Shown here piece by piece: positions 1-3,390 of a stretch of DNA of 64,000 nucleotides. The stretch covers positions 1 through 64,000 of the forward strand of contig JAQBPN010000071.1 of assembly GCA_028287505.1 (NCBI GenBank), written 5' to 3'. The notes beneath the pieces were generated by a model, which saw only the letters and a list, made by a program, of their open reading frames with translations, was not told the DNA's origin and did not search any database. How positions within the stretch are numbered: the first letter of the stretch is position 1; each line of letters begins with the position of its first letter. The stretch is from Fibrobacterota bacterium (GTDB taxonomy: Bacteria; Fibrobacterota; Fibrobacteria; UBA11236). Both the position numbers and the translations under genes were made by a program.

Positions 1-746
1 GCGTCCATAAGCTGATCATGCGGGTCCAAAGTTAAGTTTTTCTGGGTGATTTGCACGTCGAATCCCAACCCCGCCCGAACCGCTCGGTTGCCGGCGAGGT
101 ATCGGTCATAAAATCCCAAACCTTTGCCCAACCGCCCACCCCGGTTATCGAAGCAAAGCCCTGGAATCAGCACCAGATCGGGCTCCGGAGCCCCGTCCTT
201 CCTGAGTTCGGGCCTGGGCTCCAGGATTCCGAAGGCTCCTTCAGACACGTCCTTTTCCAGATCGGACACTTCCGCCATTCCCAGACCGGCGTCTTTGCCT
301 TCCCCCTTGACGACATAGGGCATCAACAGGGTTTTCCCGTCGCCGAGGATGCGTCTGAGGAGCGGCTCGGTATCCAATTCCTCCAAGGTCCCGGAAAAAC
401 AGGAAACCACCTTGGCGTTCTTGTAGCCGGGCCATTCGGCCACTTTCTCGACAATGGCCTTCGCCGCCTCCGCGCGATCTCCCGCGGGCAAGGCCTGGAT
501 CTGGCCTTTGGCCCAGACGCGCATGCCGGCCTTGTCGTTTTGCAGCTTCTCGCGCTTGTCGTTGGCTTCCGCTTCCAGGGTGATGGACTCAAGCTGGGAT
601 TTCACGTCCGACTGGATCTGGGAAACCTTGCGCTTGAGTTTTCCGAACTCGCGCATCACTTTGCCTAATTCTTTAGGCTTAACGAGTACGACAACGAGAG
701 CAACTACTACCCCCAGTTCGCCGATGCCTAATGAGTCGAAAATCAT
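1..746 (-). CDS. TatB-like segment fused to 5-formyltetrahydrofolate cyclo-ligase (3' end outside window)
   Basis: The frame is open from the ATG at 746 to the window edge, about 248 codons without a stop. Residues 1-45 look like a TatA/B family protein: a short N-terminus with a conserved Glu (GIGELG), one hydrophobic helix (VVVALVVVLV), a KPKELGK hinge and an amphipathic helix. After a charged linker, residues from about 65 match 5-formyltetrahydrofolate cyclo-ligase (MTHFS/YgfA): the LDTEPLLRRI motif, the nucleotide/substrate loop PGLCFDNRGGRLGKGLG with FYDRYL, and DPHDQLMD near the expected C-terminus. The cyclo-ligase converts 5-formyl-THF to 5,10-methenyl-THF using ATP and is normally a soluble protein of about 190 residues. 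The tatA and tatC genes lie upstream on the same strand, so the N-terminal part is most simply the TatB of this set. I see no good Shine-Dalgarno before the ATG. The fusion is seen directly in the sequence; that both halves are functional is inference. Confidence 0.85.
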   Translation of the reverse strand, partial: MIFDSLGIGELGVVVALVVVLVKPKELGKVMREFGKLKRKVSQIQSDVKSQLESITLEAEANDKREKLQNDKAGMRVWAKGQIQALPAGDRAEAAKAIVEKVAEWPGYKNAKVVSCFSGTLEELDTEPLLRRILGDGKTLLMPYVVKGEGKDAGLGMAEVSDLEKDVSEGAFGILEPRPELRKDGAPEPDLVLIPGLCFDNRGGRLGKGLGFYDRYLAGNRAVRAGLGFDVQITQKNLTLDPHDQLMD

Positions 747-1014: not shown

Positions 1015-1752
1015 TCATACCGCCTCTTCCGCCTTCTCCACTTTCTTCTGCGCCAGCGCGCATATTCCTATCGACAAAATGTACAACACGCACAACGGCA
1101 CGGCCATCATCACCTGGGACACCGGATCCGGTCCGGGAGTGAGTATGGCGGCCACGGTGAAGATGATGATGATCGCGTATCGGAAGAACCGCCACATGCC
1201 TCCGGCCGTGATCAGGCCCATGCTGGCCATTACGTAGGCGGCCACGGGCAATTCGAAGATCACCCCGAAGGCGAGCATGAACTGGCTGATGAAGGAGGCG
1301 AAATCCCCCTGGCGCCAATTCTGGGTGATGGCGCCCTTGGTGTAGGTGGCCAGGAATGCGAGACCGGCGGGCAGCACGGCGAAATAGGCGAAGCAGGCGC
1401 CGACGGCGAACATGATGATGGAAGAGAAGAAGGCGATGCCGAAGACGCGCTTTTCCTTGGCGAAGAGGCCGGGGGCCAGGAAGCGCCAGACGTTCCACAT
1501 GATCCAGGGGAAGGAGATGATGACCCCGGAGATCAGGGACATCTTGAAACTGGTCATCAGGGTTTCCATCGGCGAGGTGGCGATGAGGTCCACCTTGAGA
1601 TGCTGTTTTGTGAGAGGGTAGGCGATGACGGCCCAGATTTTTTCCCAGAAGCCGTAGGCGACCGAGGAAGCGACCACGACGCCCAGCAGGATGCGGATCA
1701 GGCGGGAGCGGAGTTCTGAGATGTGGTCCCAGAAGGTGAGTTGGGAGTCCAA
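1015..1752 (-). CDS. tatC: Sec-independent protein translocase TatC
   Basis: TatC is the six-helix inner-membrane receptor of the twin-arginine pathway. It binds the signal peptide of folded substrates and recruits TatA. The 245-residue product has the family N-terminus (TFWDHISELRSRLIR), followed by several hydrophobic segments, the cytoplasmic APGLFAKEKR region typical of TatC, and a charged C-terminal tail. The length is normal for the family. The start is a TTG at 1752; I see no strong ribosome binding site, so it is tentative. It lies 69 nt downstream of tatA and upstream of the tatB-cyclo-ligase fusion, an apparent tatA-tatC-tatB order. Confidence 0.93.
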   Translation of the reverse strand: MDSQLTFWDHISELRSRLIRILLGVVVASSVAYGFWEKIWAVIAYPLTKQHLKVDLIATSPMETLMTSFKMSLISGVIISFPWIMWNVWRFLAPGLFAKEKRVFGIAFFSSIIMFAVGACFAYFAVLPAGLAFLATYTKGAITQNWRQGDFASFISQFMLAFGVIFELPVAAYVMASMGLITAGGMWRFFRYAIIIIFTVAAILTPGPDPVSQVMMAVPLCVLYILSIGICALAQKKVEKAEEAV

Positions 1753-1821: not shown

Positions 1822-2028
1822 TCAGGACTTAGGGGTTTCCTTGGAGTCCGGATTGGCGATGGTCTTGGCGTTTTCGTCCGCCTCGTCCTTGCCGGCCATG
1901 GAGGACTTGAAGTCCCTGATGCCTTTACCCAGGCCTTTGGCGATTTCCGGGATCTTCTTTCCGCCGAAAAGCAGAATGACGATCAGCAGGATGATGATGA
2001 GTTCCGTGGGTCCAAGGTTTCCGAACAT
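1822..2028 (-). CDS. tatA: Twin-arginine translocase subunit TatA
   Basis: Small 68-residue pore-forming subunit of the Tat translocon. The N-terminus MFGNLGPTELI is followed by one hydrophobic helix, the FGGKKIPEIAKGLGKGI hinge and amphipathic helix typical of TatA, then a charged disordered tail. The start at 2028 is preceded on the minus strand by AGGAGG at ideal spacing. An in-frame upstream start 12 codons earlier would bury this ribosome binding site inside the gene. It is the first gene of the Tat locus, and a separate promoter probably lies in 2035-2185. Confidence 0.93.
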   Translation of the reverse strand: MFGNLGPTELIIILLIVILLFGGKKIPEIAKGLGKGIRDFKSSMAGKDEADENAKTIANPDSKETPKS

Positions 2029-2185: not shown

Positions 2186-3349
2186 TCAGGAGTTTGATGC
2201 GGGCGGCGCCGCTTCTTTCGGTTTGAGCCAGGCGTCCAGAAGCAATTCTTCCTGCCATTTCATCCACTTGGCGGCGGCCATCATTTTCGGGCGCGAGTTG
2301 GCTCCCGTCAGCGCCACCGCGGTCAGGGTGGATTTGGTGGCGAGCAGGGAGGGGTCCATCTTCAGATCTTCGGCGATTTTGTCGCGGACGGTTTTCAAAT
2401 GGTTCAACACGGTGGAACTGGGGCTGGGAGCGATTTTCCTGGGCGTCCGCATGGGTTGCGGCCAGGCGCCCTCGGGAAGATCCAGGGCTTCCTGGAACGC
2501 ATCCAGAAAGCCCGTTTTGATTTTCGGATTGAGACGCGAAGGCAGGGACGGCACCTGTTCCGGTTCGCCTTCCTGGGGAACGGCCATGGAAAATCGCAGC
2601 AGGATGTCCGAAGGCATCACTTTGTAGCTGGGCAAGTCCAAATCCTTGGCGGTTTGATCCCGGAACTTCCACAGCGCTTGCAGGGCGGCCAATTGCCGCG
2701 GATAAAGCCGGGAAGAGCCGTCGATGCGCCAGGTGTTTTCCAGGTCCACTTCCTTGGATTTGGCGGTGGCTTTCACCAGTTCCCGGCAACACTCTTCGTG
2801 CCACTCCAGGCGCTGCTTCGCTTCCAGTTCCTGGGTCAGGGATTCGTAGAGACCCGGCAGGAAAAAAGTATCCTGGGCGCCGTATTGCAGCATCAAGGGG
2901 GGGAGGGGACGCAGGGACCAATCGGCCTTCTGCTGATCCTTCTTCAAGGTCACCCCGAAATACGCGTGCACCAGGGCGGCGAGACCGAATGCGGGCTTGC
3001 CGAGCAATTGGGCGGCCAGCATGGTGTCGTAGACCTGGTGGGGACGGAATCCGGAGGACTGGTAGAGCATGCGCAGATCGTAATCGGCGCCGTGGAGTAC
3101 CAGGACCTTCTTGGCCAGTTTCTTCAGAAAGCCGTCGAGGGAAATTTCGCTGAGGGGATCGACCAGATAGCAATGGTCGCCGACCAGGATTTGGATCAGA
3201 CAAATCTTGGCATAGTAATGGTGCATGCTGTCCGCTTCCAGATCCAGAAACACGGTATCTACCGAGTCCATGGCCTTGAGCAGCTTCTCCATACCGGAGG
3301 GGCTGTCGACATAGTCGATCGGAAAGGTCGGTTGGGAAGGTTGAATCAT
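2186..3349 (-). CDS. rnd: Ribonuclease D
   Basis: 3'-5' exoribonuclease involved in trimming tRNA and other stable RNA precursors. The N-terminal DEDDy nuclease domain (about residues 1-190) has motif I DLEAD (DxE), motif II HGADYDLRML and motif III YGAQDTFF, with the Tyr and Asp expected for DEDDy enzymes. The second half contains one or two HRDC-like helical regions, for example RLYPRQLAALQALWKFRD. The ATG at 3349 is used; an in-frame TTG lies two codons upstream, and no clear Shine-Dalgarno distinguishes them. It is monocistronic: a terminator separates it from the upstream minus-strand gene and a TATAAT box lies about 40 nt before the start. Confidence 0.9.
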   Translation of the reverse strand: MIQPSQPTFPIDYVDSPSGMEKLLKAMDSVDTVFLDLEADSMHHYYAKICLIQILVGDHCYLVDPLSEISLDGFLKKLAKKVLVLHGADYDLRMLYQSSGFRPHQVYDTMLAAQLLGKPAFGLAALVHAYFGVTLKKDQQKADWSLRPLPPLMLQYGAQDTFFLPGLYESLTQELEAKQRLEWHEECCRELVKATAKSKEVDLENTWRIDGSSRLYPRQLAALQALWKFRDQTAKDLDLPSYKVMPSDILLRFSMAVPQEGEPEQVPSLPSRLNPKIKTGFLDAFQEALDLPEGAWPQPMRTPRKIAPSPSSTVLNHLKTVRDKIAEDLKMDPSLLATKSTLTAVALTGANSRPKMMAAAKWMKWQEELLLDAWLKPKEAAPPASNS

Positions 3350-3390
3350 ATTCAAATAGGGAAGTTCATCATCAGAATGTGTTTATCTCT

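Follow-up and report, generated by a model that had tools for sequence, protein, structure and literature searches.

The window, by which we mean the whole 64,000-nucleotide stretch of DNA that was analysed, begins inside a gene that joins a TatB-like membrane segment to a 5-formyltetrahydrofolate cyclo-ligase (FCL). FCL is normally a soluble, single-domain enzyme, and the locus raises the question whether this gene is a genuine tatB, an enzyme with a membrane tether, or an artefact of assembly. We consider it probable that the gene is the organism's TatB, with the cyclo-ligase as its cytoplasmic C-terminal domain. The features of the locus are as follows.

1 to 746, minus strand: tatB::FCL fusion gene, its 3' end on contig C93
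591 to 746, minus strand: TatB domain (amino acids 1-52), comprising a TM helix (8-21) with Glu10, a KP hinge (23-24) and an amphipathic helix
534 to 590, minus strand: linker (amino acids 53-71), poorly conserved, predicted helical
3 to 533, minus strand: FCL domain (amino acids 72-248; Pfam/NCBIfam, Foldseek), truncated by the contig edge
829 to 967, no strand: inverted repeat with tandem arms of a heptamer (CGTCGGG), between tatC and the fusion
1015 to 1752, minus strand: tatC (PF00902, 217 bits)
1822 to 2028, minus strand: tatA (TIGR01411, 66.5 bits, above cut-off)
2186 to 3355, minus strand: rnd-like gene (3'-5' exonuclease plus HRDC), a conserved upstream neighbour in the window's class

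The boundaries between the TatB-like part, the linker and the FCL part are our own placement; the TatB domain was delimited with NCBIfam TIGR01410, AF2 and an alignment with E. coli TatB and stand-alone relatives. From the ATG at 746 the reading frame runs for 248 amino acids to window base 1 without a stop, so the single uninterrupted frame claimed by the first-pass annotation holds, and it is unbroken in many relatives as well. The same annotation called the cyclo-ligase complete-looking. The domain does score well above the cut-offs, but contig C45 starts at window base 1, which cuts off the 3' end of the gene. Over window positions 1-171, inside the fused gene, C45 overlaps the end of contig C93 at 96% identity (57 amino acids); C93 provides the final ~18 amino acids and the stop of FCL, followed by carA. 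As carA is also the next gene 3' of the fusion in relatives, C45 and C93 most likely carry one gene split by the assembler, and strain variation in the MAG probably broke the assembly at this overlap.

On the minus strand the gene order is rnd-like exonuclease, tatA, tatC and fusion. The fusion had been described as lying immediately downstream of tatA and tatC; both genes are indeed upstream on the same strand, but ~270 bp separate it from tatC in this genome, compared with a zero gap in G159 and G156 of the same genus. The inverted repeat in this interval is a dispersed MITE/REP-like element inside the tat operon; its exact 22-mer has 117 genomic copies, frequently in opposed pairs ~80-170 bp from each other. 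The earlier remark that no other TatB candidate is visible was borne out for the whole genome, in which no TatA/B/E protein above cut-off was found except the adjoining tatA. The Tat system seems to be in use, as six sites in the genome score above the threshold of TIGR01409, a model of Tat signals.

We searched 167 Fibrobacterota genomes with the window protein, TatC and TatA_B_E, and inspected the loci of most genomes outside genus g9 (presumed Fibrobacter, in the presumed Fibrobacteraceae, f4; both assignments are inferred). The same fusion turned out to be conserved through the phylum. It is present in 45 of the 167 genomes and in 10 of 13 families (f1, f2, f4 with genera g8, g10 and g14, f5, f7, f9, f10, f11, f12 and f13), almost always directly after tatC, and was not found in f3, f6 and f8; in G020, tatC and the fusion lie on different contigs. 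The window protein gave full-length matches (query 1-248) in other families of the phylum. Forty-four of the fusions form alignment A1, from which G156 was excluded for an in-frame TAG. Outside g9, 69 genomes carry tatC, and these divide into 45 with the fusion, 19 with a stand-alone TatB, four in which no TatB was found and one cut by a contig end (G155). The stand-alone TatB, of 52-54 amino acids, directly follows tatC (G008-G010, G024, G025, G029, G030 and all 12 g7 genomes), and FCL lies elsewhere wherever its locus was inspected in these genomes, fused to rnd in g7 (three loci). A 4-bp overlap between the tatC stop and the start of the following gene is seen in at least 28 of the 44 fused loci and in 9 of 9 mini-TatB loci examined.

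The enzyme half was readily identified. Pfam 5-FTHF_cyc-lig (PF01812) matches amino acids 73-248 of the window protein with 108.7 bits (cut-off 27, E 4e-31), and NCBIfam TIGR02727, which also matches 44/44 fused proteins, scores 107.4 bits against a cut-off of 84.9. Foldseek ranked human MTHFS and bacterial cyclo-ligases first (human MTHFS 3hy6, E 1.7e-13). The motifs K-x-x-[LM]-R, Glu and [RK]-G-x-G-[FY]-Y-D, whose residue roles are general knowledge, are all present in the window protein, and residues E123, P143, E176, P195, F199, R205, G207, G209, D214, Q232 and D244 of the FCL part are invariant in the 44 aligned copies. No second FCL was found in this genome beyond the C93 piece of the fused gene. 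With its motifs preserved and no other copy found to stand in for it, the enzyme is probably active, and FCL is most likely a working enzyme attached to TatB. In the AF2 model of the window protein (mean pLDDT 87.9), a TM helix at 8-21 is followed, after a break, by a single helix at 24-84 and by the FCL fold.

The identity of the N-terminal half required more comparisons. TIGR01410 (tatB) matched amino acids 6-70 of the window protein with 27.5 bits (E 3e-6), under its curated cut-off of 56.5. All eight stand-alone TatBs of the phylum that were tested, located after tatC, also score below it (25-44 bits); the cut-off is therefore non-discriminating here and was dropped as the decider. TIGR01411 (tatA) gave no match to the window protein at E<=10. 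Among the fused proteins TIGR01410 matches 37/44 and TIGR01411 (tatAE) 20/44, while Pfam TatA_B_E detects just 20/44. Searched against the PDB, the A1 profile found E. coli TatB (2mi2, E 5e-10; 9dzz_B, E 1.5e-9) and, more weakly, bacterial TatA (2l16, E 6e-5; 2mn6 and 2mn7, E 0.003). An HMM of the mini-TatBs gave the fused proteins a median of 27.2 bits, TatAs 20.8 bits and the window copy 18.4 bits, and the window protein, used alone against the PDB, matched a TatA chain from a chloroplast (E 0.045) and none of TatB. On these comparisons the fused N-terminus appears closer to TatB than to TatA, with the last two tests giving the weaker support. Glu10 aligns with Glu8 of E. coli TatB and is invariant in 44/44 fused copies; a review (PMC13186574) suggests that this conserved TatB residue (E8) may aid membrane-driven movement.

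Within genus g1 the TatB part is under strong purifying selection, with pN of 0.02-0.10 and pS of 0.43-0.78, the values for the FCL part being 0.10-0.23 and 0.50-0.61 (Nei-Gojobori, five pairs, with dS saturated in some). Conservation is lowest in the linker, which has a mean top-residue frequency of 0.23 vs 0.50 for FCL and varies in length.

In the mechanism that we propose, the TM helix would insert with its N-terminus out, Glu10 would sit in the membrane against TatC, and the amphipathic helix would lie on the cytoplasmic face and continue by way of the long helix to FCL. The TatB part would act in the TatBC receptor, and the cytosol-facing FCL would carry out the ATP-driven conversion of 5-formyl-THF to 5,10-methenyl-THF. 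Most likely, the gene arose by read-through fusion of adjacent genes in an old tatA-tatC-tatB-FCL operon; the link would have started as chance read-through and may be passive. Such a fusion would be tolerated because TatB past about residue 50 is dispensable for export: E. coli TatB cut by engineering to ~50 amino acids still exports substrates, as reported in PMC9436932. The natural TatB of 52-54 amino acids in the same slot of relatives agrees with this, and an enzyme replacing the tail should be tolerated.

The loss of tatC bears directly on this reading. Outside g9, 18 genomes are without tatC, of which 15 have a full FCL (G004, G007, G026-G028, G041-G044, G146-G148 and G151-G153); the TatB part is present in none of these 15. 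The other three gave a weak partial FCL match (G001), no FCL match (G037) or chance-level matches (G165). Genomes of f4 that are without the native operon show rnd > FCL or rnd::FCL instead of rnd > tatA > tatC > TatB::FCL. In seven of them, all tatC-less (G044, G146-G148 and G151-G153), rnd lies directly 5' of FCL, and in G043 the two are in a single frame. Since rnd adjoins FCL, the tat genes and the TatB part appear to have been excised in f4.

Two further arrangements of FCL were observed. Genes joining an RNase D-like exonuclease with HRDC to FCL (rnd::FCL) occur at L082:2780-4573 (G054) and the other g7 loci L081 and L087, and at L127 (G043), where the frame examined covers the FCL part and the rnd tail; they apparently arose after deletion of the intervening tat genes. 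At L193:1468-3534 (G041) and L126:55-2499 (G042), FCL is the N-terminal part of a frame of ~700-800 amino acids with a multi-TM-looking C-terminal part, which in G042 has no Pfam match.

In a tree of 73 FCLs of the phylum, 45 are fused in genomes with tatC, 14 unfused without tatC, 14 unfused with tatC and none fused without it. Parsimony required seven changes on this tree; of three supported independent pairs, too small a number for a test, 2.5 agreed in direction and 0 were opposite, which is not significant. The FCLs mostly track family labels, and fused members occur in both deep groups, so that one ancient fusion with later splits is the simplest history. TatCs that accompany a mini-TatB form a single clade (99/100) to which g7 of f4 also belongs, suggesting a transfer into g7. 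The TatCs of g9 and the second copies of g10 belong to a distant type near E. coli, on long branches. At L094 and L115 (g10) and L118, L120 and L122 (g9), a tatA-tatC pair of this type has no TatB after it; the pair was possibly acquired from outside.

A different explanation is that the TatA/B-like segment merely anchors the enzyme to the membrane and that TatA and TatC alone do the export; we regard this as rather unlikely. Its best support comes from g9 (80 genomes), in which a hydrophobic N-terminal segment, ending in most cases in a TatB-like FGS motif, is present in 17/17 FCLs sampled. Six of the 17 genomes are without tatC (G060, G064, G067, G102, G105 and G106) and retain the segment, so a membrane anchor can persist without Tat; the other 11 have tatC, and those that were typed (G062, G088 and G103) carry the distant form. 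Similarly, three tatC-less genomes of g15 (L117, L091 and L116) have a separate TM ORF of ~45 amino acids between rnd and FCL, a membrane segment without Glu and likely a TatB remnant separated from FCL. Two-component TatAC systems with a bifunctional TatA exist (PMC13186574), this genome's own TatA carries a Glu at the position matching Glu10, and four g21 genomes (G011-G014) have tatA-tatC and no TatB that we could find, which suggests that TatA may suffice in places.

Against a mere anchor stand the invariance of Glu10, which an anchor does not need, the stand-alone TatB that occupies the slot in the 19 genomes with FCL elsewhere, and the absence of the TatB part from all 15 tatC-less genomes with full FCL outside g9. 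The g9 anchors themselves are without Glu in 15/17 cases (G061 and G099 have one at position 2). The first FCL helix is missing from the 17 sampled g9 proteins (no K-x-x-[LM]-R; loci L119, L121, L123 and L150-L155), and the activity of this shortened FCL appears doubtful. The g9 anchor probably descends from TatB and outlasted the native Tat operon; it is either vestigial, or keeping FCL at the membrane is useful in its own right. Because Glu is invariant and the TatB part is usually lost together with tatC, tethering of the enzyme, one of the two possibilities raised by the first-pass annotation, is insufficient by itself, and the other, a genuine fused TatB, is well supported, whether or not the enzyme serves it as an inert cytoplasmic cap.

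It is improbable that FCL has become functional within the Tat receptor, for instance by replacing the proofreading helical tail of TatB or by linking the ATP or folate state to export. That each of the two deep FCL groups contains fusions would fit such a role, as would the AF2 model, in which one long helix leads from the TatB amphipathic helix to FCL, and E. coli TatB beyond ~50 residues has been implicated in folding quality control (PMC9436932). The linker, however, is poorly conserved and variable in length, and relatives carry the two halves as separate genes. We give similarly little credence to the broader form of this idea, in which FCL would serve the receptor across Fibrobacterota (as a folding check or in one-carbon/ATP coupling) and Fibrobacter would keep a membrane-bound enzyme after loss of its native translocase. 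A misassembly or frameshift joining two genes, to which the cut of the gene by a contig end in this MAG might point, is ruled out for practical purposes by the fusion in 45 genomes and by a junction far from the contig edge.

Beyond the phylum, the A1 profile was run on the 224 other bacterial genomes of our set of 391 (167 being Fibrobacterota), and there was no fusion among the matches listed. None of these matches starts before profile position 22, and the only ones to start before 42, in G204 and G304, both contain several stops. Two TatB-part patterns, run against a named collection described as comprising 84,980 genomes, matched 75 stretches, of which 13 encode relatives; all 13 are from Fibrobacterota and none from outside the phylum. 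Rare fusions outside Fibrobacterota are possible. In the literature, a TatB::FCL fusion is unreported as far as titles and abstract openings go.

The gene preferred here, a TatB with FCL as its C-terminal domain, places a housekeeping enzyme on a core translocase subunit; the two are kept joined in most tatC-bearing lineages and are separate in others, so that the phylum offers natural experiments on what TatB needs. The stand-alone TatB of Fibrobacterota is close in length to the shortened E. coli TatB that still supports export. With the fusion one could also ask directly if attachment to the membrane is important for the recycling of folate or for proofreading by Tat. For annotation it is a hazard, as tatB in this genome and its relatives may be overlooked or filed under folate metabolism.

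Compared with known TatBs (TIGR01410; PDB 2mi2 and 9dzz), the fusion has the same N-terminal TM helix with Glu, hinge and amphipathic helix, is encoded beside tatA and tatC, and matches PDB TatB as a profile; it differs in that its C-terminal tail is an enzyme and that the window protein falls below the curated cut-off. Its gene order is tatA-tatC-tatB, in contrast to tatA-tatB-tatC in E. coli. With FCL/MTHFS (TIGR02727; human 3hy6 and B. anthracis 2jcb) it shares the whole fold (TM-score by target 0.79 and 0.83, respectively) and the conserved motifs, but the Fibrobacterota enzyme would be attached to the membrane via TatB. Minimal TatAC systems, as described in the review PMC13186574, resemble those Fibrobacterota that have tatA and tatC only, whereas here tatC is followed by a third, conserved member of the TatA/B family. 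The fused TatC of Halobacterium (TatC2), mentioned in the same review, is likewise a natural fusion with a Tat subunit; there, however, two TatC copies are joined, while here a Tat subunit is joined to a metabolic enzyme.
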